A model generated the notes under the pieces. The model saw only the letters and a program-made list of their open reading frames with translations, had not been told where the DNA came from and did no database searches. From positions 1-24,196 of the IMG/VR virus record IMGVR_UViG_3300047319_000349: DNA of 24,196 bases. One strand, written 5' to 3'. Both the position numbers and the translations under genes were made by a program. This document shows positions 3,606 through 21,476 of the stretch, piece after piece. Origin of the DNA: a virus. Within the stretch, counting starts at the first letter, position 1. Each line of letters begins with the position of its first letter.

Positions 3606-3700
3606 CTTTCAGGCGCAGCCTAGGCTAGCTCCCGAACGCCGACTCGTCATCGGCCCGGCTGCGCTCCCGATTCGCAGACGAACCTTTGACGGGAGGTGTT

Positions 3701-4156
3701 ATGGCTGAAATTCGTTTAGCGCGAGGGCAGGTTTCGATTGTCGATGACGGGCTTGTTGCAAAACTCTCGCCTTACCAGTGGTACCTCAGCAACAAGGGCT
3801 ACGTTGTTGCTAGGGCGGGTGGCAGGAAACTAATTTTGATGCACCGCGTGATCGCCGCTCCTGGCGAACAGCAAGTTGTTGATCACAGGAATGGGGATAA
3901 GTTGGATAACCGCCTGAGCAACTTGCGCGCGTGTAGTCGTGCAGAAAACGCGCGCAATAGGAAAATGCACGAAAACAACCGGTGCGGAACCAAAGGCGTC
4001 TACGCTGACATCACGAAAAAAGTGACACGCTACCGCGCACAAATTCGAGTCGATGGAAAGAAGATTTCGCTTGGCTCATTTCCAAGCCTGATAGACGCCG
4101 AACACGCCTACAAGGTGGCTTCTGCCAAGTACCACGGAAACTTTGGTCGAGCCTGA
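3701..4156 (+). CDS. Free-standing HNH homing-type endonuclease with an AP2-like DNA-binding domain
   Basis: The start at 3701 has GGGAGG 4 nt upstream (3691-3696) and gives 151 residues. The central part is an HNH nuclease fold: MHRVI (47-51), VVDHRNGDKLDNRLSNLRAC (59-78, with His62, Asn70 and Asn74) and RAENARNRK (80-88). The C-terminal part (about 97-148, GTKGVYADI, YRAQIRVDGKKISLGSF, AEHAYKVA) is an AP2-type DNA-binding domain. This combination is typical of homing endonucleases that cut allelic sites lacking the gene and spread by repair. Base composition is clearly more AT-rich than the neighbours, with AAA, AAT and TTG codons that are rare elsewhere here, which suggests separate acquisition. 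HNH genes beside terminases can also help packaging, but the AP2 domain favours a mobile gene. Confidence 0.88.
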   Translation: MAEIRLARGQVSIVDDGLVAKLSPYQWYLSNKGYVVARAGGRKLILMHRVIAAPGEQQVVDHRNGDKLDNRLSNLRACSRAENARNRKMHENNRCGTKGVYADITKKVTRYRAQIRVDGKKISLGSFPSLIDAEHAYKVASAKYHGNFGRA

Positions 4157-11750: not shown

Positions 11751-12167
11751 ATGCCAAAGACCTTCACCGCGCCGTTCGCGCAATCGCCCAAGACCGCAAC
11801 CGCCGTCGTCACGGCTGCCGTCGGCAACCTCGGCACCGACGCGCCTACCGGCACCGTTCTGCTGATGACGGCAGGTACTGAGGGCGCGATCATGACGCGG
11901 CTGTGGGCCATTCCCCGCGCAACCGTGACGCCAAGCAGCCTGTTGCTGTTCATCAGCTCTGATGCGGGCGTCACTCAGCGGCTGAAAGATTCCGAGTCGA
12001 TGGCTTCGCAGACCGTGAGTACGACTGCTGCCATTGCCGAGACCACGTTCCCCAACTACTCCGAATCGCGCCCGCTGCGCCTTGGGGCGGGTGATCGCCT
12101 GTACGTTGGCACGCAGGTCGCGCAGGCGACGGGCATCCTCTTCAGCGCCGAATACACGGACTTCTGA
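11751..12167 (+). CDS. Small virion protein of the fibre cluster, unidentified family
   Basis: This 138-residue beta-rich protein has a Thr/Ala-rich start (MPKTFTAPFAQSPKTATAVV) and a middle with LLLFISSDAGVTQRLKDSES. It ends with GDRLYVGTQVAQATGILFSA, a jelly-roll-like strand pattern seen in small phage baseplate or fibre-tip proteins. I do not recognise a specific family. It lies 8 nt after the fibre-module gene with a weak AAGGA before the ATG, and its stop overlaps the next start as TGATG. A minor fibre or tip component is the likeliest role. Confidence 0.6.
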   Translation: MPKTFTAPFAQSPKTATAVVTAAVGNLGTDAPTGTVLLMTAGTEGAIMTRLWAIPRATVTPSSLLLFISSDAGVTQRLKDSESMASQTVSTTAAIAETTFPNYSESRPLRLGAGDRLYVGTQVAQATGILFSAEYTDF

Positions 12168-13081
12168 TGAGCTACACCTATGGAACCAAGGGCGCGCCAG
12201 CCGTTGGCGGCGGGGTGCCTGGCCTGCCGCGCCGCCCCGACCTGCGCGGTGAAATCGCCTTCTGCACCCCCGGCACGTATCAGTGGATCGTGCCTGATGG
12301 CGTGACTTCGATCTGCTGCGTCACGTCCGCCGGGGGTGGCGGCGGCTGGGCCGGCGATTCAGGCTTCGCGTTGTCTTCTGGCGCTGGCGGAGCTACTGCA
12401 TGGAAAAACAACATTCCAGTCACGCCGGGACAGCAAATTCAGATCGTCGCCGGCGATGGCGGCAGGGCTGGTAATGGAGCAACAACCGCCGGTGCCGGGG
12501 GAGTCAGCTACATACAGGATGCCGCCACCTGTGCAGCGGGCGGCGGCACGGCCGGTTCCAGCAGTACGACACCCGCCGCCGGTGGGCAGGTGTTGGCTGG
12601 CGATGGCGGCGGTAACGGCGGTAACGGCGTTTACTTATCGGTCGCCTCTGGCATCGCCGCTAGTGCCGGCGCTGCAGGGGGTTATAGCGGCAATGGCGGG
12701 AATGGGGTTGGGAGTTCCGGCGGGGTCGCCACGGCGGGCAATCCCGGCACAGGCGGAGCCCCCGGCTCAGGTTCGGCGCAGGGAACCTCGCGTCTCGCTG
12801 CCGGTAGCGGCGGCATCGGCATATTTGGCGAAGGTGCATCCGGCAACGGCGGAGCTGGTGGTGGTGTTATTGGCGGTCAAGGCGGCTCCGGCGGGCAGGA
12901 TGGCTCTACTCCAACAGCAAACCAGACCGCCCTAGGTCAAGGCGGCAATTTCGCTGCTGGTGGTGCTGCCACATCGAACGGCACGTCCAGCGGCAACGCC
13001 ATGCCTGGCATTTGCGGCTTCGCCCGCATTCTCTGGGGTGCCGGTCGCGCATTCCCTTCTACTGATGTTGGACCAAGCTAA
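12167..13081 (+). CDS. Glycine-rich adhesin-like tail tip protein
   Basis: The 304-residue protein opens with a short domain carrying TPGTYQWIVPDGVTSICCVT (about 36-55), then about 220 residues dominated by Gly, Ala, Ser and Asn (GGGNGGNG, GYSGNGGNGVGSSGG, GNGGAGGGVIGGQGGSGG). It ends with the conserved ICGFARILWGAGRAFPST. Gly-rich repeats with interspersed variable loops recall the polyglycine-II sandwich of phage adhesins such as gp38 of S16-like phages. The C-terminal GAGRAFPST motif recurs in Gly-rich phage tail proteins. Binding a host surface receptor is the likely job, inferred from composition and place. Its composition gives long spurious reading frames in other phases. Confidence 0.72.
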   Translation: MSYTYGTKGAPAVGGGVPGLPRRPDLRGEIAFCTPGTYQWIVPDGVTSICCVTSAGGGGGWAGDSGFALSSGAGGATAWKNNIPVTPGQQIQIVAGDGGRAGNGATTAGAGGVSYIQDAATCAAGGGTAGSSSTTPAAGGQVLAGDGGGNGGNGVYLSVASGIAASAGAAGGYSGNGGNGVGSSGGVATAGNPGTGGAPGSGSAQGTSRLAAGSGGIGIFGEGASGNGGAGGGVIGGQGGSGGQDGSTPTANQTALGQGGNFAAGGAATSNGTSSGNAMPGICGFARILWGAGRAFPSTDVGPS

Positions 13082-13089
13082 GGAGCAGC

Positions 13090-13800
13090 ATGAACAACGC
13101 AATTTACTACGACTACAGCAACCTGTGCAAAGTGTACCTGACGACCGGCATTGCGACGCGCGAGCCGCTACCCGATTTTCTCTGCGGGTTCCCGCCAGCG
13201 GATCTCGCTGACCTCACGTCGTTCGACCTGTCGCTGGGTATCCACGACCTCGCATGGTGGCCCGCCGAAGACGGATCGATCCCGCTGGGCGAGTACCAGA
13301 GCTACGACCTCGGATCGGAAACGCTTACGTCCGACATGGGCCGCAAGGTAGTCGTCGTGGTGCATCCGGTCGTGGACTGGACCCCGGAGCAAATCCACGC
13401 CGACATCGTGCCGAAGATCGTCAGCGCCATCTTCCAGTCGAACCGCGACACGGACGCCTTCTACAACACCTACATTGGCCGCCGAAGCTGGGAGCAGGCA
13501 GTCGCAGACAAGGCGCGCGCATTCGCTGCTGGCGGCTACACAGGCGACGTGCCGGCTGCCGTCTCCGCGATGATGACCGAGAACGGTCAGACCGCGCAGC
13601 AAGCCGCTGACGCGATCATCGCCCTGTTCGACGACCAGAGCGGCGTGATGGGGCAGGTTTTCGCCAAGCGCGACAAGTGCCAAGTCGCGATGCGGGCCGC
13701 CACGGTGAACGCCGAACTGAATCCGGCTGTGGCCGAGTGGACGGCGTTCCTCAACGGTCTGTGCGCGCAGCTCAGCATCAACCGGCGGTATGACTACTAA
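13090..13800 (+). CDS. Fibre-cluster protein, possible assembly chaperone
   Basis: The 236-residue product has a start rich in Tyr and Asp (MNNAIYYDYSNLCKVYLTTG), a middle with MGRKVVVVVHPVVDWTPEQI (about 84-103), and a helical C-terminal half. That half contains DKARAFAAGGYTGDVPAAVS then AMMTENGQTAQQAADAII (about 140-180), a pattern I associate with phage fibre-linked proteins of the tail assembly or DUF4376-like group. It directly follows the adhesin (AGGAG 4-5 nt before the ATG) and overlaps the next gene by 11 nt. A chaperone or accessory role for the adhesin is plausible but not demonstrated. Confidence 0.55.
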   Translation: MNNAIYYDYSNLCKVYLTTGIATREPLPDFLCGFPPADLADLTSFDLSLGIHDLAWWPAEDGSIPLGEYQSYDLGSETLTSDMGRKVVVVVHPVVDWTPEQIHADIVPKIVSAIFQSNRDTDAFYNTYIGRRSWEQAVADKARAFAAGGYTGDVPAAVSAMMTENGQTAQQAADAIIALFDDQSGVMGQVFAKRDKCQVAMRAATVNAELNPAVAEWTAFLNGLCAQLSINRRYDY

Positions 13801-15355
13801 AGTCACGGTTGCGGACGCCGGCTCTGTCGGCGTCATCAAGGACCTGCCAGCGCATACCCTGCCGCCGGCCGCGTGGAGCGACGCGAGCAATATCCGCTTC
13901 CTCGACGGCTCGGCGCTTCAGTTCTTCGGCCATGGCGAAGTGTATGGTGCGCCGCTGGAAGTGCCGCAGTACCTGCTGCAGATGAACGTGGCCGGCGTGC
14001 GCTACTGGCTGTATGCGACGGCGAGCAAGCAGGTGGCGGTGACCAACGCGAGCGGGTCGTCGGTGCACACGGACATCACGCACGCGACGCCGCGCGCCGG
14101 GACGGTCAACTCGTGGAGTGGCTTCGTCTTCGGCGGCGTGCCGGTGCTGAACGCTGGCGACGGCAAGCCGCCGATGTACTGGGACCAGAACCTGACGCAC
14201 AAGTTTGCCGACTTGGCGGCGTGGCCGGCCAACACGTCATGCAAGGTGCTGCGCCAGTACAAGAACATGATGATCGCGCTGGGCGTCACGAAGACCGGCA
14301 CGCCCTACCCGTTCATGGTCAAGTGGTCGAATCTGGCCGTGGCCGGTTCCCTGCCCTCGACGTGGAACGAAGCCGACGCGACGCAGGACGCGGGCGAGTT
14401 CGATCTCGCGGAGGGGCAAGATCCCATCGTGGACGGCCTCGGGCTGAAAGATAGCCTGATCGTCTACAAGGAATCCGCGACGTACGCCATCGACTACATC
14501 GGCGGCGCATTCATCCTCAAACCGCGCAAGGTTTCTGGCATGAGCGGCCTGCTGAACATTAACTGCGCGGTGGAGTTCGAGGCGGGGTTCGGTGCCATGC
14601 ACTTCGCGGTGACCGGGTCCGACATCGTGGCCCACGACGGCTTCTCGGCGCAGTCGGTGCTCGACAAGAAGGCGCGGCGCTTCTTCTTTCAGAACCTCGA
14701 CACCGCGAACAAGGGGCTCGCGTTCTGCTGCAAGAACCCGTTCCTGAATGAGATTTTCGTGTGCTACCCGAGCATCGGCGCGACGTGGTGCGACACGGCG
14801 CTGGTCTACAACTACGTCGACGGTACCGTGTCGTTCCGCTCTCTGCCGAACGTCACGCACGCGGCTTACGGGCCGGTCGATAACTCGCTGTCGGGTGCAT
14901 GGTCGCAGGACGCGGCGCCGTGGGATTCGGACCTGACCGCGTGGAACGGGCCGGATTTCACGCCCGACCGCGCGCGCGTGATGATGGGCAGCGCCGACAA
15001 CAAGCTGTATCTGCTGGACGCCTCGGCCTCGTTCAACGGCGCGCTGCCGCAAGCGTACTTGGAAAGGACCGGGCTGACCTTCGACGCGCCGGAGCGGATC
15101 AAGCTGCTCTCGGGCGTGCTGCCGCGCATCACCGGCAACGACGGCGGGACGGTGCTGGTGCGCATCGGCGGGGCCGAGCATCCGGGCGATGCGCCGACTT
15201 GGTCGGACCCGATCACCTACACCATCGGCCAGACGCTGCGCTGCGACGGCTTCGCGTCGAGCCGCTACCTGGGCATCCGCTTCGAGACTGGCACCGCGTT
15301 TAGCTGGCGGCTGGACAGCTTCGATCTGTTCGTCGACGACGCGGGAGAGTTCTGA
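13790..15355 (+). CDS. Tail hub / packaged-DNA stabilisation-type structural protein
   Basis: The 521-residue, beta-rich protein begins with IKDLPAHTLPPAAWSDASNI then RFLDGSALQFFGHGEVYG (about 16-53), a start shared by podovirus structural proteins that occupy the place of P22 gp10. The body carries repeated beta-propeller-like blocks such as LKDSLIVYKESATYAIDYIG, MHFAVTGSDIVAHDGFS and RARVMMGSADNKLYLLDAS. Its likely role is in the tail machine below the adaptor, sealing the DNA channel. The family match is from pattern memory, and no catalytic motif is seen. It overlaps the previous gene by 11 nt and the next by 1 nt (TGATG). Confidence 0.68.
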   Translation: MTTKVTVADAGSVGVIKDLPAHTLPPAAWSDASNIRFLDGSALQFFGHGEVYGAPLEVPQYLLQMNVAGVRYWLYATASKQVAVTNASGSSVHTDITHATPRAGTVNSWSGFVFGGVPVLNAGDGKPPMYWDQNLTHKFADLAAWPANTSCKVLRQYKNMMIALGVTKTGTPYPFMVKWSNLAVAGSLPSTWNEADATQDAGEFDLAEGQDPIVDGLGLKDSLIVYKESATYAIDYIGGAFILKPRKVSGMSGLLNINCAVEFEAGFGAMHFAVTGSDIVAHDGFSAQSVLDKKARRFFFQNLDTANKGLAFCCKNPFLNEIFVCYPSIGATWCDTALVYNYVDGTVSFRSLPNVTHAAYGPVDNSLSGAWSQDAAPWDSDLTAWNGPDFTPDRARVMMGSADNKLYLLDASASFNGALPQAYLERTGLTFDAPERIKLLSGVLPRITGNDGGTVLVRIGGAEHPGDAPTWSDPITYTIGQTLRCDGFASSRYLGIRFETGTAFSWRLDSFDLFVDDAGEF

Positions 15356-15624
15356 TGCGAACCACCAACAGCAACACGTTCGGCTACCAGCCCGGCGACC
15401 CGCCGAGCGATCCGGCGCAGCTGCAGCGCTTCTTGCGCGAGGAGTTCATCAAGATCAAGGCTGCGCTCGACGCCGTGGCCGATGGCTTCGACCCGGTCAC
15501 GAACGCACCGCCGGACAAGCCGCGGCAAGGCATGCGCCGCTACGCAGACGGCACGCAATGGAACCCGGGCAGCGGCGCCGGACTTTATCGATACGACGGA
15601 ACAACATGGAGATTTCTCGGATGA
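15355..15624 (+). CDS. Small tail-associated protein
   Basis: The 89-residue product reads NTFGYQPGDPPSDPAQLQRF near the start, a helical LREEFIKIKAALDAV (about 28-42), and a C-terminal PRQGMRRYADGTQWNPGSGA followed by GLYRYDGTTWRFLG. The last part looks like a short beta-hairpin module found at the ends of small phage structural proteins and fibres. Function is unknown; it is probably virion-associated from position. It overlaps its upstream neighbour by 1 nt and the cupin gene by 4 nt. Confidence 0.65.
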   Translation: MRTTNSNTFGYQPGDPPSDPAQLQRFLREEFIKIKAALDAVADGFDPVTNAPPDKPRQGMRRYADGTQWNPGSGAGLYRYDGTTWRFLG

Positions 15625-15935
15625 TCGAGATCGACCTGAACATCAAGCACTTCTTCTCGGGACGTGAGTACGCCAAGAAGATGACCCTACCGGCTGGCCA
15701 CTACGCCGAATCGCACGAGCACCAGTTCGACCACCTGAGCATTCTGGCGTCCGGCAGGGTGACGGTCACGGTCGATGGCGTGGCCACCGACTACACCGGC
15801 CCCGACTGCATCACGATCCGCGCCGGTCAGATGCACCGGATTGATGCGCGCAGCGACTCGGTCTGGTTCTGCGTCCATGCGACCGACGAGACCGATCCGG
15901 ACAAGGTCGATTCAGTGCTCATCGAGGAGGCATGA
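15621..15935 (+). CDS. Cupin-fold protein
   Basis: From the ATG at 15621 (GGAG at 15608-15611 and ATGA overlap with the previous stop) the product has 104 residues; an in-frame ATG at 15606 is also possible. Residues 23-45 (LPAGHYAESHEHQFDHLSIL) match cupin motif 1, with His32, His34 and His38 as likely metal ligands. Residues 60-75 (GPDCITIRAGQMHRID) match motif 2, with His72. It is a single small beta-barrel that could bind a metal or sugar. The gene is coupled to the dioxygenase gene after it by overlapping stop and start, so the two probably act in one process. No substrate can be named. Confidence 0.8.
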   Translation: MIEIDLNIKHFFSGREYAKKMTLPAGHYAESHEHQFDHLSILASGRVTVTVDGVATDYTGPDCITIRAGQMHRIDARSDSVWFCVHATDETDPDKVDSVLIEEA

Positions 15936-16498
15936 TGCAAAACTTCCTGAAGATCGCAGAAAACCTGAACGTCTTGCCGCTGCAGATGGCTCTGATTCGT
16001 CAGCCCGGACTGTTCGGGCGACGCAGTGCGCGCAAGGACGGCTACGCAGACTCGCCGCATCTGGCGATGTCCGATATCTGGGTGCGCTACAACCATCCGG
16101 ACAACCTCGCCAAGGGAATGGAAGTCTTCAACGCCGAGCACGATTCGGTCTGGTATCCGGAGGCCGCCTACATCCCCGAGGTGCGCCAGATCGTCATGCA
16201 TTTGATGGCCCTGGTCGGTGGTGAGCGCCTCGGCGGGGTCCTCATCACCAAGGTTCCGCCAGGCGGCAAGATCGCCCCGCACATCGACCGCGGCTGGCAC
16301 GCCGAGTATTACGACAAGTACTACGTCCCGATCCAGAACGACGACGGCGCGGTGTTCGGCTTCGAGGATGGCGTGATTGCTCCTCGACTGGGCGAAGCCT
16401 ACTGGTTCTACAACGGCAACCCTCACTGGGTTGAAAACAATTCATCGCGAGATCGCATTGCGATGATCGTCTGCATTCGCACTCATAGGGGGGCTTAA
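15935..16498 (+). CDS. Asp/Asn beta-hydroxylase-like 2OG-Fe(II) oxygenase
   Basis: Two adjacent ATGs (15932, 15935) are possible; 15935 has the better spacing from AGGAGG at 15925-15930, so it is used here. In numbering from 15932, residues 103-180 form the double-stranded beta-helix core: VLITKVPPGGKIAPHIDRGW with His117 and Asp119, then NPHWVENN with His165, then RDRIAMIVCI with Arg175. These are the iron triad (H-x-D...H) and the 2-oxoglutarate-binding Arg of the aspartyl/asparaginyl beta-hydroxylase family. Such enzymes hydroxylate protein Asp or Asn side chains. Its place among tail genes suggests a virion protein or a host surface component as target; that is inference. All key residues are present. 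Confidence 0.85.
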   Translation: MQNFLKIAENLNVLPLQMALIRQPGLFGRRSARKDGYADSPHLAMSDIWVRYNHPDNLAKGMEVFNAEHDSVWYPEAAYIPEVRQIVMHLMALVGGERLGGVLITKVPPGGKIAPHIDRGWHAEYYDKYYVPIQNDDGAVFGFEDGVIAPRLGEAYWFYNGNPHWVENNSSRDRIAMIVCIRTHRGA

Positions 16499-16500
16499 CT

Positions 16501-17667
16501 ATGCCATGGGCAGTCGCAGCAGCAGGGGTCGGGGCGGTTGGCGCCTACGAATCTTCGAAGAACAACAAGGAGGCGGCCCAGATCGCCTCGCAACAGCATA
16601 TTGACCCGCGCATCGATAATATTCTGTTCGGCGGCAGCAATGGCAACGGGCCGCAGACAGGCCTGCTGAGCCAGTACCAGTCGATGCTGACCCAGCCGCA
16701 GGCGATGCAGGGCTACCAGCAGGCCGGCGCCGACTACCTGAACCAGTACGGCAAGTCCGACATGGGCGCGATTCATGACGCCGCCGGAAATCTGATCAAG
16801 GGGAATCAGGCGCCGACGACCTCGCCTTCCGCCTGGGCGGTCGGCAACCAGGTGCAGGCGCCGTCGCAGAACGGCATGGACCTGTCGGGCTCGTACAACA
16901 GCTTGATCAACGACGCCCCCGGCGCGAGCCCGTTCCTGACCGGTGCGATCCAGAAGGGTATCGACCAGTCGAGCAACGCGTTCACCCAGATGCAGCAGGG
17001 CGCGACGGACAACCTGATGAAAAACGTCCTGCCGAGCATCCGCAGCAATTCGGTGCTGGCCGGGCAGTACGGCGGCAGCCGTCAGGGCGTCGCGGAGGGT
17101 AACGCGATCGGCGACTTCGCCAAGGCCCAGCAGCAGGCAGCAAGCCAGTTCGGCCAGAACAACACGGACGCGGCCGTCGCGGCGCAGGCGGGCCAGTACA
17201 ACAACGACCGTAACTTGCAGCTGGCGGCCACGCAGGGTCTCGGCGCGCAGCAGTACGGGGTGGCGCAGCAGGACGCGAATACGAAGAACCAGGCCGAGTT
17301 TATGAACGTGGGCAACGTCCAGCAGTCGAACCTCGCCAACCAGGGCGCGCAGCTCGCAACGAACGCCCAGAACACCGGTTCGGCGCTCGGCGGCGCCGGC
17401 TTGCTCGGCGGCCTGACGTCGGGTGCCGTCGGCGCGGTCAACAGTGACCTTCCGCGCGCACAGGCGGTGAACGGCCTGCTGACGCCATATCTAGGGGTGA
17501 ACAACTCTTCCTCGCAACCGGTGTATCAGAACACAGCGGGGAACGTGCTGGGCGGCGCAATGGCGGGCCTAGGACTGTATAACGGGCTGACGGGCGGCAA
17601 GTCGGGCGGCGGGACGAACTGGGGAGGGATCTTCGACCTGTTCTCCAAAGACTACATGAACTACTAG
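16501..17667 (+). CDS. Ejection-type internal virion protein 1
   Basis: The 388-residue product begins with a hydrophobic stretch (MPWAVAAAGVGAVGAYESSK) and is otherwise rich in Gln, Asn, Ala and Gly. Helical, amphipathic segments include AFTQMQQGATDNLMKNVLPS, SRQGVAEGNAIGDFAKAQQQ and NTGSALGGAGLLGGLTSGAV. Composition and position match the podovirus proteins ejected with the DNA (the P22 gp7/gp20/gp16 group). No enzyme motif is visible. It is the first of three such genes in a row with short gaps (2 and 8 nt around this gene). Confidence 0.68.
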   Translation: MPWAVAAAGVGAVGAYESSKNNKEAAQIASQQHIDPRIDNILFGGSNGNGPQTGLLSQYQSMLTQPQAMQGYQQAGADYLNQYGKSDMGAIHDAAGNLIKGNQAPTTSPSAWAVGNQVQAPSQNGMDLSGSYNSLINDAPGASPFLTGAIQKGIDQSSNAFTQMQQGATDNLMKNVLPSIRSNSVLAGQYGGSRQGVAEGNAIGDFAKAQQQAASQFGQNNTDAAVAAQAGQYNNDRNLQLAATQGLGAQQYGVAQQDANTKNQAEFMNVGNVQQSNLANQGAQLATNAQNTGSALGGAGLLGGLTSGAVGAVNSDLPRAQAVNGLLTPYLGVNNSSSQPVYQNTAGNVLGGAMAGLGLYNGLTGGKSGGGTNWGGIFDLFSKDYMNY

Positions 17668-17675
17668 GGGCTGAC

Positions 17676-19202
17676 ATGGCAGGATTACTCGATATGTTCG
17701 GCGGCGGCGACCCGCAACAGCAGGGGCTGCTCGCGGCGGCGGCGCAGATGCTGCAGGCGTCCGGGCCTTCGCTGATGCCGCATTCCTTCGGCCAGGTGGC
17801 GGGAGCTGGTCTACAGGGCTACCAGCAGGCGCAGCAGCAGGCGCAGGAGCAGGCCATGAATGCGCTCAGGCTCAAGGCGTTGCAGGGAGAACTGTCCGAC
17901 AAGGCCAAGGCGCGCACGGATGCGCTGGCGGCGCAGCAATGGATGGTCGACTACAACAAACCCGACGCCACCGCGCCGGCGCGTGCGGTTCTTGGTGGCG
18001 ACCTCGCCCCGACCGTGGCCAACGCGGATAAGTTGACCGCCGCGTGGGGCGGCCCGACGCCGCCGGCAGCCGGCTCGCAGGGCGCCGACCCGTACGGCCA
18101 GAAGCTGGCGTTGGCGCGCGCCATGCGCATGAGCGGCAATCCGGTGCTGATGGGCAGGGCCGACGAGATCGAAAAGCAGGCGCACGAATGGCGGCCCAAG
18201 TACAGCACCGAATTCCGCCCCGGCATGGGCGCGGATGGCCAACTGCACAATTACGTGCTGGCCGATGATGGTACGCAGAAGGACACGGGGCTCGGCGTCA
18301 AGCCTGAAATGACCGAGGTGGATCTCGGCGGCACCAAGCAGTTCGTCGACAAGAACCGCGTCACCAACGGGCAGACGTTCGACAAGACGATGACGTTTGC
18401 AGACCGCAGCGCAGCGGCGCGGCTAGCCTTCGACAAGAACCAGGCTGAGACCAATCAGGATGCGCCGATGGATCCGCTGGCGGTGCATTTCACGGCGCAG
18501 CAGGCGCTGGCCGGCGACACCAGCGCGTTCCAGAACTTCGGGCGCGGCGCGCAGGGTGCGCAGAACCTCAAGTCGGTGCGTGAGGAAATGACACGCATGG
18601 CGCTGGCGCAGGGCATGAGCGGGTCCGATCTGGCCGCCAAGGTGGCCGAGTTCGGCGGCCTGAAGGCGGGCCAGCGCACCGCCGCCACCCGCAGCGCGAA
18701 CATCGAGATCGCGGCGCAGGAGGTTGATTCGCTGGCACCGTTGGCGCTGGAAGCCTCGGCCAAGGTGGCGCGCAGCGGCTTCCTGCCGTTCGGCAAAGTG
18801 CAAGTAATGTTCGATACGAACACCAACGACCCCGACCTACGCCGGCTCGCCATGTCCAACACGGCGCTGGTCAACGCCTACGGCCAGGTGATGGCGCGCG
18901 GCGGCACCGGGACCGTGTCGGATAAGGATCATGCGCGCGAACTGCTGGCCACCGCGTTTGACCAGCCATCGTATGCGGCGGCGGTAGCGCAGTTGCAAAA
19001 AGAAACGCGCGCGGCGCAAGCGGCCCCGAAGGCGGTGCAGAAGAGCCTGTCGGACAGTGTGACCGGGCGCGGCGAAACAGTGCCGAATCCGGTGGCGGCG
19101 CCGGCGAGCCAGTTCTCGGTGACGGCGCCGAACGGCAAGACCTATACATTCGGTGACGCGAAGTCGCTGGCCAACTTCAAGCTCTCGGCGGGGATCCAGT
19201 AA
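17676..19202 (+). CDS. Ejection-type internal virion protein 2
   Basis: The 508-residue protein opens with MAGLLDMFGGGDPQQQGLLA and an Ala/Gln-rich helical region (AGLQGYQQAQQQAQEQAMNA). Charged helical segments follow, including VREEMTRMALAQGMSGSDLA. The tail ends with a small Tyr/Phe-containing module, SVTAPNGKTYTFGDAKSLAN, seen at the end of several phage internal proteins. I recognise no enzymatic domain; no lysozyme-type glutamate motif is visible. Assigned from composition and its place between two similar genes. The next ATG follows the stop directly. Confidence 0.68.
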   Translation: MAGLLDMFGGGDPQQQGLLAAAAQMLQASGPSLMPHSFGQVAGAGLQGYQQAQQQAQEQAMNALRLKALQGELSDKAKARTDALAAQQWMVDYNKPDATAPARAVLGGDLAPTVANADKLTAAWGGPTPPAAGSQGADPYGQKLALARAMRMSGNPVLMGRADEIEKQAHEWRPKYSTEFRPGMGADGQLHNYVLADDGTQKDTGLGVKPEMTEVDLGGTKQFVDKNRVTNGQTFDKTMTFADRSAAARLAFDKNQAETNQDAPMDPLAVHFTAQQALAGDTSAFQNFGRGAQGAQNLKSVREEMTRMALAQGMSGSDLAAKVAEFGGLKAGQRTAATRSANIEIAAQEVDSLAPLALEASAKVARSGFLPFGKVQVMFDTNTNDPDLRRLAMSNTALVNAYGQVMARGGTGTVSDKDHARELLATAFDQPSYAAAVAQLQKETRAAQAAPKAVQKSLSDSVTGRGETVPNPVAAPASQFSVTAPNGKTYTFGDAKSLANFKLSAGIQ

Positions 19203-21476
19203 ATGCCTATCGACTACGACCAACTGGCCGGCAAGTTTGGCGGCGCGGCGGGAGACGCTGCGCCTGCCGACAAATACGATGCGCTGGCGGCCAAGTACGG
19301 CGCCGCCCAGAAACCAGCGCCCAAGCCGTTCGGCCAGCAGCTGAACGACGCGATCAGCGACGTGCCGCGCCAGCTCGGCATGTTCGCGCGCTACGGGCTA
19401 GAGGGCATTGGCGGTACGCTCGACTTCCTCTCATCACCGATCCGCGGTACGCTGAACGCAGCAGGCATGGACATCCATCCCGGCAGCGGCCGGGTGCTGG
19501 CGGATGCCATCGGGCTGCCGCAGCCGCAGACCGCTGGCGAGCGCGTGGTCGGCGATGCAGCGCGCACTGTGGCCGGCGCCGCCCTGCCGCTCGGACTCGG
19601 GAAGAGCGCTGCGGCTGCCGGCGACGCCTTCCTCGCCTCGCGCGCCCAACAAGCGGCAGCAGGAGCTGCGTCCTCCGACCGTCTCGCATCGGCCGCTGAT
19701 CGTGCCGCTCGCGGGGCAAGTGGCGTAGGAAATTTGCTTTCCGCGAATGCTGGATCGCAGCTTACCTCAGCCGGCGCGTCCGGCCTCGCCGGCGGCTACA
19801 CGCGCGAGACCGGCGGCAACGATGCTTCCCAGTTGGCCGCGTCGCTGGCGGCCGGTGTGGCCGCTCCGCTGGCCATGAACGGCATCCAGAGCGGCGTCAG
19901 CGCGGCCGCGCGCCGTCTTTCGCCGTCCGCCCCGGCGCCGCAGCAGATCGATATCACGATCAACAACGCCCTGCAGCAATCCGGGCTCAAGCTGGGCGAC
20001 CTGCCGGCACAGGTGGCGCAGGGCATCCGCGACGACGTGGCCAAGGCGTTTCGCACCAGCGACCAGGTCTCGCCCGACGCCGTGCGCCGGCTGGCCGACT
20101 ACCGCCTGACTGGGCTCACGCCGACCGCCGCCGGCCTGACGCTGGACCCGGCAGTCGTCAGCCAGCAGAAGAACTTGGCCAAGCTAGGCATCAACAGCAA
20201 GGATCAGGTGGCGCAGCAACTCGGCCAGGCGCAGAACGCCAACAACCGCGCGCTGACGCAGGGGCTGAACAACCTCGGCGCCGACACGACCGACGATGCG
20301 ATTTCCGGCGCCGGTACGGTGATGGGCGCACTTTCGCAGCGCAATGCCCGCGCGCAGGACATCATCAACGGCCTGTACAGCCAAGCGCGTGACTCGTCGG
20401 GCCGCAGCGCCCTACTCGACCACTACGACTTCACCAACCGCGCGGGCGACCTGCTGCACGACGCCAACGTTGAGAGCTTCCTGACGCCCGACATCCGCAA
20501 CAAGCTGAACAGCTTCGCCACCGGCCAGACGCCGCTGACGGTCGACATCGCCGAGCAGTTCAAGACCGGCATCGGCAAGATCCAGCGCAATAGCAGCGAC
20601 GGCAACGTGCGCACGGCGCTCGGGCTGGTACGTCAGGCGCTGGACGACACGCCGTTGATCAACCAGGGCGCAGCGCCTGCGGCAGTGAACGCCGGCAACC
20701 AGTTGGTGGCTGCCGGCGGCGCCCTGACGGCGGGCGCGCAGCCACAGAGTCTTGGTCAGGATGCGATCGACGCGTTCAACAAGGCTCGGGGCATGAACCG
20801 CAGTTGGATGAACATTGTCGAGCGCACGCCGGCGCTGCAGGCGGTACGCGATGGCGTCGAGCCGGACAAGTTCGTCCAGCAGTTCATCGTCGGCACCGGG
20901 AAGGATGCCAGCGTCATGGGCGTGGCGCAGTTGAAGAACTCGATCAAGTCCAGCCCGGAAGCGATGGATGCCGTGCGCGGCCAGATCACGTCATACCTGA
21001 AACAGCGCGCGCTGAACGGCGCCGCCGACGAGGTGGGTAATTTCAGCCAGTCGGCCTACAACAAGGCGCTGGCGTCGATCGGCGACCGCAAGCTGGCCCT
21101 GTTCTTTTCGCCCGACGACATCAACCAGATGAAGGCCATCGGGCGCGTGGCCAGCTACGAGCAATTCCAGCCCGCCGGCAGCGCGGTGAACAACTCGAAC
21201 ACCGCCGGCAGTGCTGGCGCGATGCTGCTGGACCGCGTCGCAAACAGCGCGCTTCTGTCGAAACTGCCGGTGCTGGGGGCGGCGATCCAGCCGGCCGCGC
21301 AGAACATTTCGATTGGACTGCGGGCGAACCGGGCGCTGAATGTGCCGATGAATCTTGCGGGACAGGCGCCGGTCATGCAGATGCCGCAGCGCGGGATGCT
21401 GCTGTCGCCAGCGGCGTTCATGGGTACGGAAAGCGATGAGGACCGGCAGCGCCGGCTACTTGCGACGGGACGCTAA
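19203..21476 (+). CDS. Ejection-type internal virion protein 3 (largest)
   Basis: The 757-residue protein repeats a short motif at its start (YDQLAGKFGGAAG, then KYDALAAKYGAAQ). Ala/Gly-rich hydrophobic helices follow (about 95-240, such as ARTVAGAALPLGLGKSAAAA and GGNDASQLAASLAAGVAAPL). A long helical body runs to about residue 700 (TQGLNNLGADTTDDAISGAG, MNRSWMNIVERTPALQAVRD). Size and the hydrophobic helical stretches fit the P22 gp16-like protein thought to help DNA cross the inner membrane. No lytic transglycosylase motif is apparent. It begins immediately after the previous stop codon; a minus-strand mini-frame overlaps its last 21 nt. Confidence 0.7.
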   Translation: MPIDYDQLAGKFGGAAGDAAPADKYDALAAKYGAAQKPAPKPFGQQLNDAISDVPRQLGMFARYGLEGIGGTLDFLSSPIRGTLNAAGMDIHPGSGRVLADAIGLPQPQTAGERVVGDAARTVAGAALPLGLGKSAAAAGDAFLASRAQQAAAGAASSDRLASAADRAARGASGVGNLLSANAGSQLTSAGASGLAGGYTRETGGNDASQLAASLAAGVAAPLAMNGIQSGVSAAARRLSPSAPAPQQIDITINNALQQSGLKLGDLPAQVAQGIRDDVAKAFRTSDQVSPDAVRRLADYRLTGLTPTAAGLTLDPAVVSQQKNLAKLGINSKDQVAQQLGQAQNANNRALTQGLNNLGADTTDDAISGAGTVMGALSQRNARAQDIINGLYSQARDSSGRSALLDHYDFTNRAGDLLHDANVESFLTPDIRNKLNSFATGQTPLTVDIAEQFKTGIGKIQRNSSDGNVRTALGLVRQALDDTPLINQGAAPAAVNAGNQLVAAGGALTAGAQPQSLGQDAIDAFNKARGMNRSWMNIVERTPALQAVRDGVEPDKFVQQFIVGTGKDASVMGVAQLKNSIKSSPEAMDAVRGQITSYLKQRALNGAADEVGNFSQSAYNKALASIGDRKLALFFSPDDINQMKAIGRVASYEQFQPAGSAVNNSNTAGSAGAMLLDRVANSALLSKLPVLGAAIQPAAQNISIGLRANRALNVPMNLAGQAPVMQMPQRGMLLSPAAFMGTESDEDRQRRLLATGR

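Follow-up and report, generated by a model that had tools for sequence, protein, structure and literature searches.

A cupin and a 2OG-Fe(II) oxygenase encoded before podovirus DNA-ejection genes: a candidate cassette for hydroxylation of an N-terminal proline

The coupled cupin and oxygenase genes described here may form a modification cassette, in which the oxygenase would hydroxylate the N-terminal proline of the DNA-ejection protein encoded immediately downstream, with the cupin as its partner or chaperone. This reading is preferred, tentatively. It starts from five observations, namely the fold of the oxygenase, its catalytic residues, a conserved slot in the genome, a linkage that is kept when gene order flips, and a covariation between the type of enzyme and residue 2 of the ejection protein.

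The gene pair and its neighbourhood

The window, that is, the whole stretch of 24,196 bases analysed (virus record IMGVR_UViG_3300047319_000349), encodes a P22-type portal. The cupin gene (15621-15935, plus strand, 104 aa) has its ATG at 15621 and its stop at 15935, and is joined by a 4-bp ATGA overlap to the oxygenase gene (15932-16498, plus strand, 188 aa), with its ATG at 15932 and its stop at 16498. Both reading frames are real and both proteins exceed their Pfam cut-offs, the cupin for Cupin_2 (PF07883, 35.4 bits vs 27.2, 8.6e-9) and the oxygenase for PF05118, Asp_Arg_Hydrox (26.6 bits vs 22.6, 6.2e-6), so that the two coupled genes of the first-pass annotation are confirmed. Their location, given there as inside the tail module, is more exactly between the tail-stabilisation genes and that of the first ejection protein. 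A virion structural or stabilisation protein is encoded just before the slot (13790-15355, plus strand; phrog_3287, 2.4e-101), followed by a small gene (15355-15624, plus strand, 89 aa, phrog_8092) that overlaps the start of the cupin gene just as the cupin gene overlaps that of the oxygenase, and of which few relatives have a copy.

Behind the pair lies the gene of the proposed substrate, a putative first ejection-type internal virion protein (16501-17667, plus strand, 388 aa) whose N-terminus reads MPWAVAAAGVGAVGAY, with the codons of Pro2 (CCA) and Trp3 (TGG) at 16504-16509. The protein has no Pfam or PHROG match, and is putatively assigned from its position and the form of its N-terminus. 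It is followed by a second (17676-19202, plus strand) and a third (19203-21476, plus strand) putative ejection or internal virion protein, likewise named for their position and with homologues in 7 and 15 loci, respectively. Megablast against phage records returned no match for the cupin/oxygenase region. A gene resembling, by eye, that of an HNH/AP2-type endonuclease lies at 3686-4156 of the window, ahead of the terminase genes.

A conserved slot before the first ejection gene

Relatives of the oxygenase (at least 551 in IMG/VR) and of the cupin (at least 585) are both widespread in podoviruses, directly upstream of the gene of the first DNA-ejection protein (T7 gp14/P22 gp7 type). IMG/VR is unevenly sampled; in two cases (L010/L011 and L130/L134) one contig was returned twice with near-identical loci, and these contigs may be concatemers. 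Eleven loci come from bacterial genome records, several of them Burkholderiales (Undibacterium, Paraburkholderia, Cupriavidus), and are presumably prophages; those of Undibacterium sp. TS12 (L110) and Paraburkholderia tropica (L116) have both cupin and oxygenase. In 202 of the 213 loci that could be read, the gene after the cluster encodes an Ala/Gly-rich hydrophobic N-terminal segment. The ejection gene in the same slot matches T7_gp14 (PF24072, 2.2e-23) in phage R1 and P22_gp7 (7e-7) in PfAn1, and up to 31 of 52 aligned counterparts match PHROGs named for DNA ejection (23, 4 and 4 across three families).

The gene preceding the slot varies, being a stabilisation protein, a fibre-like gene or terminase-like; in cupin group C3 (17 loci) it is terminase-like and not a fibre gene, which argues against a tail fibre or Gly-rich adhesin as the target, the first option of the first-pass annotation. 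Such genes do neighbour the pair in the window, but for the Gly-rich protein (12167-13081, phrog_4474) no homologue turned up in the other oxygenase loci that were compared, and it is therefore a poor substrate candidate; this target was rejected and is scarcely credible. The wider suggestion, that a virion protein or the host surface is hydroxylated, survives in a narrower form in which the ejection protein is favoured, for its constant downstream position and for the covariation of its residue 2.

In T7, gp13 (PF11090) has the same position as the cupin/oxygenase slot, directly before gp14. No sequence relation of gp13 to the cupin or the oxygenase was seen, and comparison with the GNAT-like proteins of the slot by hhalign, with shallow profiles, gave no match; gp13 is not claimed as a GNAT relative. 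Several types of these GNAT-like proteins fill the slot in phages that have neither cupin nor oxygenase (L334, L353, L324, L352, L341, L343 and L304), that of L343 being well backed by Pfam (3.7e-11) and the rest recognised by eye. In another locus the slot before the ejection gene holds a DUF6445 protein (L266:2763-3371, 8.4e-7), probably a different 2OG-Fe(II) oxygenase.

The oxygenase

The AlphaFold2 model of the oxygenase is confident (mean pLDDT 95) and has a 2OG-oxygenase fold. Its iron and 2OG ligands are present as H117-x-D119...H165...R175, encoded within 16280-16456 of the plus strand (H117 16280-16282, D119 16286-16288, H165 16424-16426, R175 16454-16456). Among the 144 fetched oxygenases, H117 and D119 are each found in 144, H165 in 143 (with one gap) and the 2OG-binding Arg in 137. 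The intact H-x-D...H and Arg noticed at first pass are borne out by these sequences.

The first-pass description as Asp/Asn hydroxylase-like goes no further than the Pfam label; by profile, the solved structures closest to the phage enzyme are those of proline hydroxylases. The best PDB profile matches are L-proline cis-4-hydroxylase (4p7w, 3.8e-6) and proline 3-hydroxylase (2.6e-4), followed by AspH (9.4e-3). By fold the three are tied, with Z scores of 15.1 for proline 3-hydroxylase (over 150 residues, rmsd 2.5), 14.6 for L-proline cis-4-hydroxylase and 14.4 for AspH, so that fold scores do not separate kinship with the proline hydroxylases from kinship with AspH. L-proline cis-4-hydroxylase and proline 3-hydroxylase type II (1e5r) are also 2OG-Fe(II) enzymes with HxD...H and Arg, acting on a free prolyl amine. 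Their substrate is free proline and they are about 290 aa long, whereas the phage enzyme, 12-17% identical to them by structural alignment, has 188 aa and a protein N-terminus as its proposed substrate; it lacks the approximately 290-residue architecture of the proline 3-/4-hydroxylases and is not counted as a member. AspH (5apa, 5jqy) shares PF05118 and a similar fold score with the phage oxygenase, and acts on EGF-like domains. The iron site of AspH is a two-His site; the phage oxygenase, unlike AspH, keeps HxD...H. The one line of evidence that the oxygenase would hydroxylate a prolyl ring is the covariation at residue 2.

Oxygenases annotated as TlmH in the Prochlorococcus phages P-HM1 and P-HM2 are weak homologues (25-29% identity). 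They have been described as asparaginyl beta-hydroxylases, with proposed roles in 2-oxoglutarate and nitrogen (PMC3037559). These are T4-like phages, and the neighbourhood of their oxygenase differs from that in the window.

The cupin

The AlphaFold2 model of the cupin is likewise confident (mean pLDDT 92) and shows a cupin fold, matching KdgF and HP0902 with Z of about 12. Its metal site, H32-x-H34-x3-H38...H72, is encoded within 15714-15836 of the plus strand (H32 15714-15716, H34 15720-15722, H38 15732-15734, H72 15834-15836). All four residues are invariant in the 29 sequences of alignment A2, in agreement with the His-rich metal site first proposed. The Glu position of motif 1 in the canonical 3-His/1-Glu cupin is taken by the invariant His38, making this a 4-His variant. 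KdgF (5fpx), TM1459 (8hjy) and a cellulose oxidative enzyme (9bwf) are also small single-domain cupins with a metal site (fold Z 11-12); their substrates are unrelated, and the site of the phage cupin is HxHx3H...H.

The family splits into two branches that are homologous by profile (8e-28); the HxHx3H...H site is invariant in one of them, and the ligands are lost in the other. The cupin matches PHROG 24280/12032 ('tail fiber adhesin'/'short tail fiber') at 3.5e-19 and 2.8e-18, a fibre label that appears to be derived from annotation. Podovirus cupins so labelled in BA3 and VPMS1 ('short tail fiber'/'tail fiber adhesin') belong to the same family and slot as that of the window; the A3-type members of this labelled set have lost the metal ligands, and none was found beside an oxygenase. 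A further podovirus cupin reported under a fibre-type label is ORF43 of Ralstonia phage phiAP1 (PMC8703784). A plain tail-fibre adhesin was considered as the identity of the cupin and not adopted: it is a single cupin domain whose metal site is invariant in oxygenase phages, so the fibre label is unsupported.

The branch without ligands lends some weight to a different reading, in which the cupin serves chiefly as a non-enzymatic chaperone of assembly or as a minor virion protein, at the T7 gp13 position, while the oxygenase is an accessory gene and the link to Pro2 was inherited with the adjacent ejection gene. Metal-less cupins fill the same slot in many phages and are joined to the other branch by the above profile match, T7 gp13 sits in an equivalent slot, and some records call the cupin a structural or tail-fibre protein. 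Against this, Pro2 is fixed among ejection proteins that otherwise diverge strongly from one oxygenase phage to the next, the oxygenase has fixed catalytic residues, and the pair stays together despite flips in gene order. We regard this reading as unlikely.

Linkage of the genes in the slot

Linkage was counted over 70 oxygenase groups defined at 80% identity. A cupin adjoins the oxygenase in 40 of them, 27 times downstream and 13 times upstream; this adjacency survives reversal of order, which points to a functional link. In the other groups the neighbour is a sulfotransferase-like P-loop gene (15), a GNAT gene (2) or none that was recognised (13). Cupin and sulfotransferase-like gene were never seen together among the 70 groups. 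All four His are present in 99 of 99 cupins adjacent to an oxygenase, and 20 of 20 cupins without the metal site have no oxygenase neighbour.

The sulfotransferase-like P-loop protein, 170 aa long with a PRSGTTW motif, takes the place of the cupin in L010, L025, L027, L036, L040 and others; its relatives in other Pseudomonas phages are near DNA-metabolism genes. A protein of about 440 aa that resembles, by eye, an ATP-grasp ligase is encoded downstream of the ejection genes in several cupin/oxygenase phages, namely L026 (10872-12206), L069, L074, L076 and L077. Homologues of the cupin in Xanthomonas phages Mallos and Elanor (L099 and L105; Bradleyvirinae) lie near replication genes, beside a nucleotide pyrophosphohydrolase, and not near virion genes.

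These Bradleyvirinae and Pseudomonas-phage neighbourhoods are the reason why DNA modification was considered, as part of a reading in which the enzymes modify a host metabolite, an envelope component or phage DNA and owe their location to chance; MW202665, moreover, encodes a protein annotated as a pyrimidine hydroxymethylase. Such a reading is not favoured and appears improbable, as podoviruses keep these genes directly in front of the ejection gene in some 200 loci though the upstream gene changes, and as such a reading leaves the covariation at residue 2 unexplained.

Covariation with residue 2 of the ejection protein

Start codons were picked automatically, the criteria being a ribosome-binding site and a hydrophobic N-terminus, and a few of them (L027; L090/L091) are wrong. 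In standard oxygenase loci the ejection protein begins with Met-Pro in 118 of 118 cases (28 groups at 40% identity), comprising 92 loci with a 4-His cupin, 20 with a sulfotransferase-like gene and 6 with neither; among distinct N-termini of this class Pro2 is found in 93 of 93. Trp3 follows in 96 of the 118, Met-Pro-Trp being the usual beginning. In alignment A7 of 52 ejection proteins, with a mean column identity of 11%, no column but Pro2 is invariant. Each of the four Pro codons occurs, and selection therefore acts on the amino acid. The residue-2 pattern is absent from the next two genes (B and C) of the same phages.

Other occupants of the slot are accompanied by other residues. Loci with a metal-less cupin have Ser, Thr or Ala at residue 2, with Pro in 2 of 75, both probable start errors; in a sample assembled through similarity of the ejection protein and not of the enzymes, Pro was found in 0 of 56 such loci. 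Gly2 is found in 7 of 8 loci with the sulfotransferase-like gene alone, and Val2 in 4 of 4 oxygenase-GNAT loci, PfAn1 being a phage of this Val2/GNAT kind. The oxygenases of the Val2 loci keep H117, D119, H165 and R175 and differ at R34 (to L), H43 (to F), D48 (to T/S), T106 (to N), W122 (to A/E/V) and K129 (to R), positions nearly fixed in the Pro2 class. A switch in specificity is suggestive only, since these 4 sequences are probably one clade. Pro2 is also found in 69 of 83 loci with a 4-His cupin and no oxygenase, and in about 12 loci with a GNAT-like gene in the slot, which represent some six sequence types; it thus goes with the oxygenase but is not confined to it.

Correlated change of oxygenase and Pro2 was tested on an ejection-protein tree of one family (138 tips, 230 columns of divergent sequence), giving LR 65.4 and p 2e-13, with about 30 parsimony changes of Pro2 and about 19 of the oxygenase. 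The same test on the cupin tree gave LR 31.1 and p 3e-6; these p-values are rough, as trees of such divergent proteins are uncertain. The 4-His site changes once on the cupin tree; its association with Pro2 thus amounts to one event, confounded by descent. The effects of the two enzymes are separated by oxygenase phages that lack the cupin, those of the sulfotransferase-like type, in which Pro2 is present in 20 of 20.

Instead of the N-terminus, the oxygenase might modify an internal Asp, Asn or Pro of this or another ejection protein, Pro2 being kept for another purpose, e.g., Met removal, N-terminal stability or cupin binding. The slot and the linkage fit this equally, the Pfam label is that of an Asp/Asn hydroxylase with AspH folds scoring about the same, and Pro2 is still found in 69 of the 83 phages with the cupin alone. 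The aligned ejection proteins, however, have no invariant internal residue beside the single invariant Pro2 column, and the Val2-class oxygenases differ at residues beyond the iron site. On this evidence an internal site seems unlikely.

Proposed function

The preferred reading, hydroxylation at the N-terminus, runs as follows; from the above observations we infer that Met is removed in the host, what the reaction and its target residue are, and what role the cupin has. Pro at position 2 permits removal of Met1 by methionine aminopeptidase. The host enzyme would remove Met1 of the Met-Pro-Trp ejection protein and so expose an N-terminal proline similar to free L-proline, and the oxygenase would hydroxylate this residue before or during assembly. 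As a metal-dependent partner or chaperone, the 4-His cupin may act on that N-terminus or hold it, and in metal-less-cupin phages the holding role alone would be left to it. As to benefit, one may speculate on protection of the N-terminus or on tuned membrane insertion of the Ala/Gly-rich segment. Since Pro2 occurs without the oxygenase in cupin-only and GNAT-like loci, it may also serve otherwise and merely accompany the enzyme.

The slot before gp14/gp7 could conceivably be a general locus of N-terminal modification, where 2OG oxygenase, 4-His cupin, GNAT-type acetyltransferases, DUF6445 and sulfotransferase-like proteins tailor the leading residue of the injected protein, each enzyme matched to the first residue of its ejection protein; we hold this generalisation to be rather doubtful.

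Limited literature searches found nothing joining a cupin with an ejection protein, nothing joining a sulfotransferase with an internal virion protein, and nothing on hydroxyproline or a prolyl hydroxylase in a bacteriophage virion protein. Enzyme-like genes directly before podovirus ejection genes are common and have no assigned job, the cupins being annotated as tail fibres. The covariation between enzyme type and residue 2 points to a substrate, a residue and a reaction, and these can be tested by mass spectrometry. If true, this would be, to judge from those searches, the first case of post-translational hydroxylation in a phage virion protein, and would give a first clue to the job of genes in the gp13 position.
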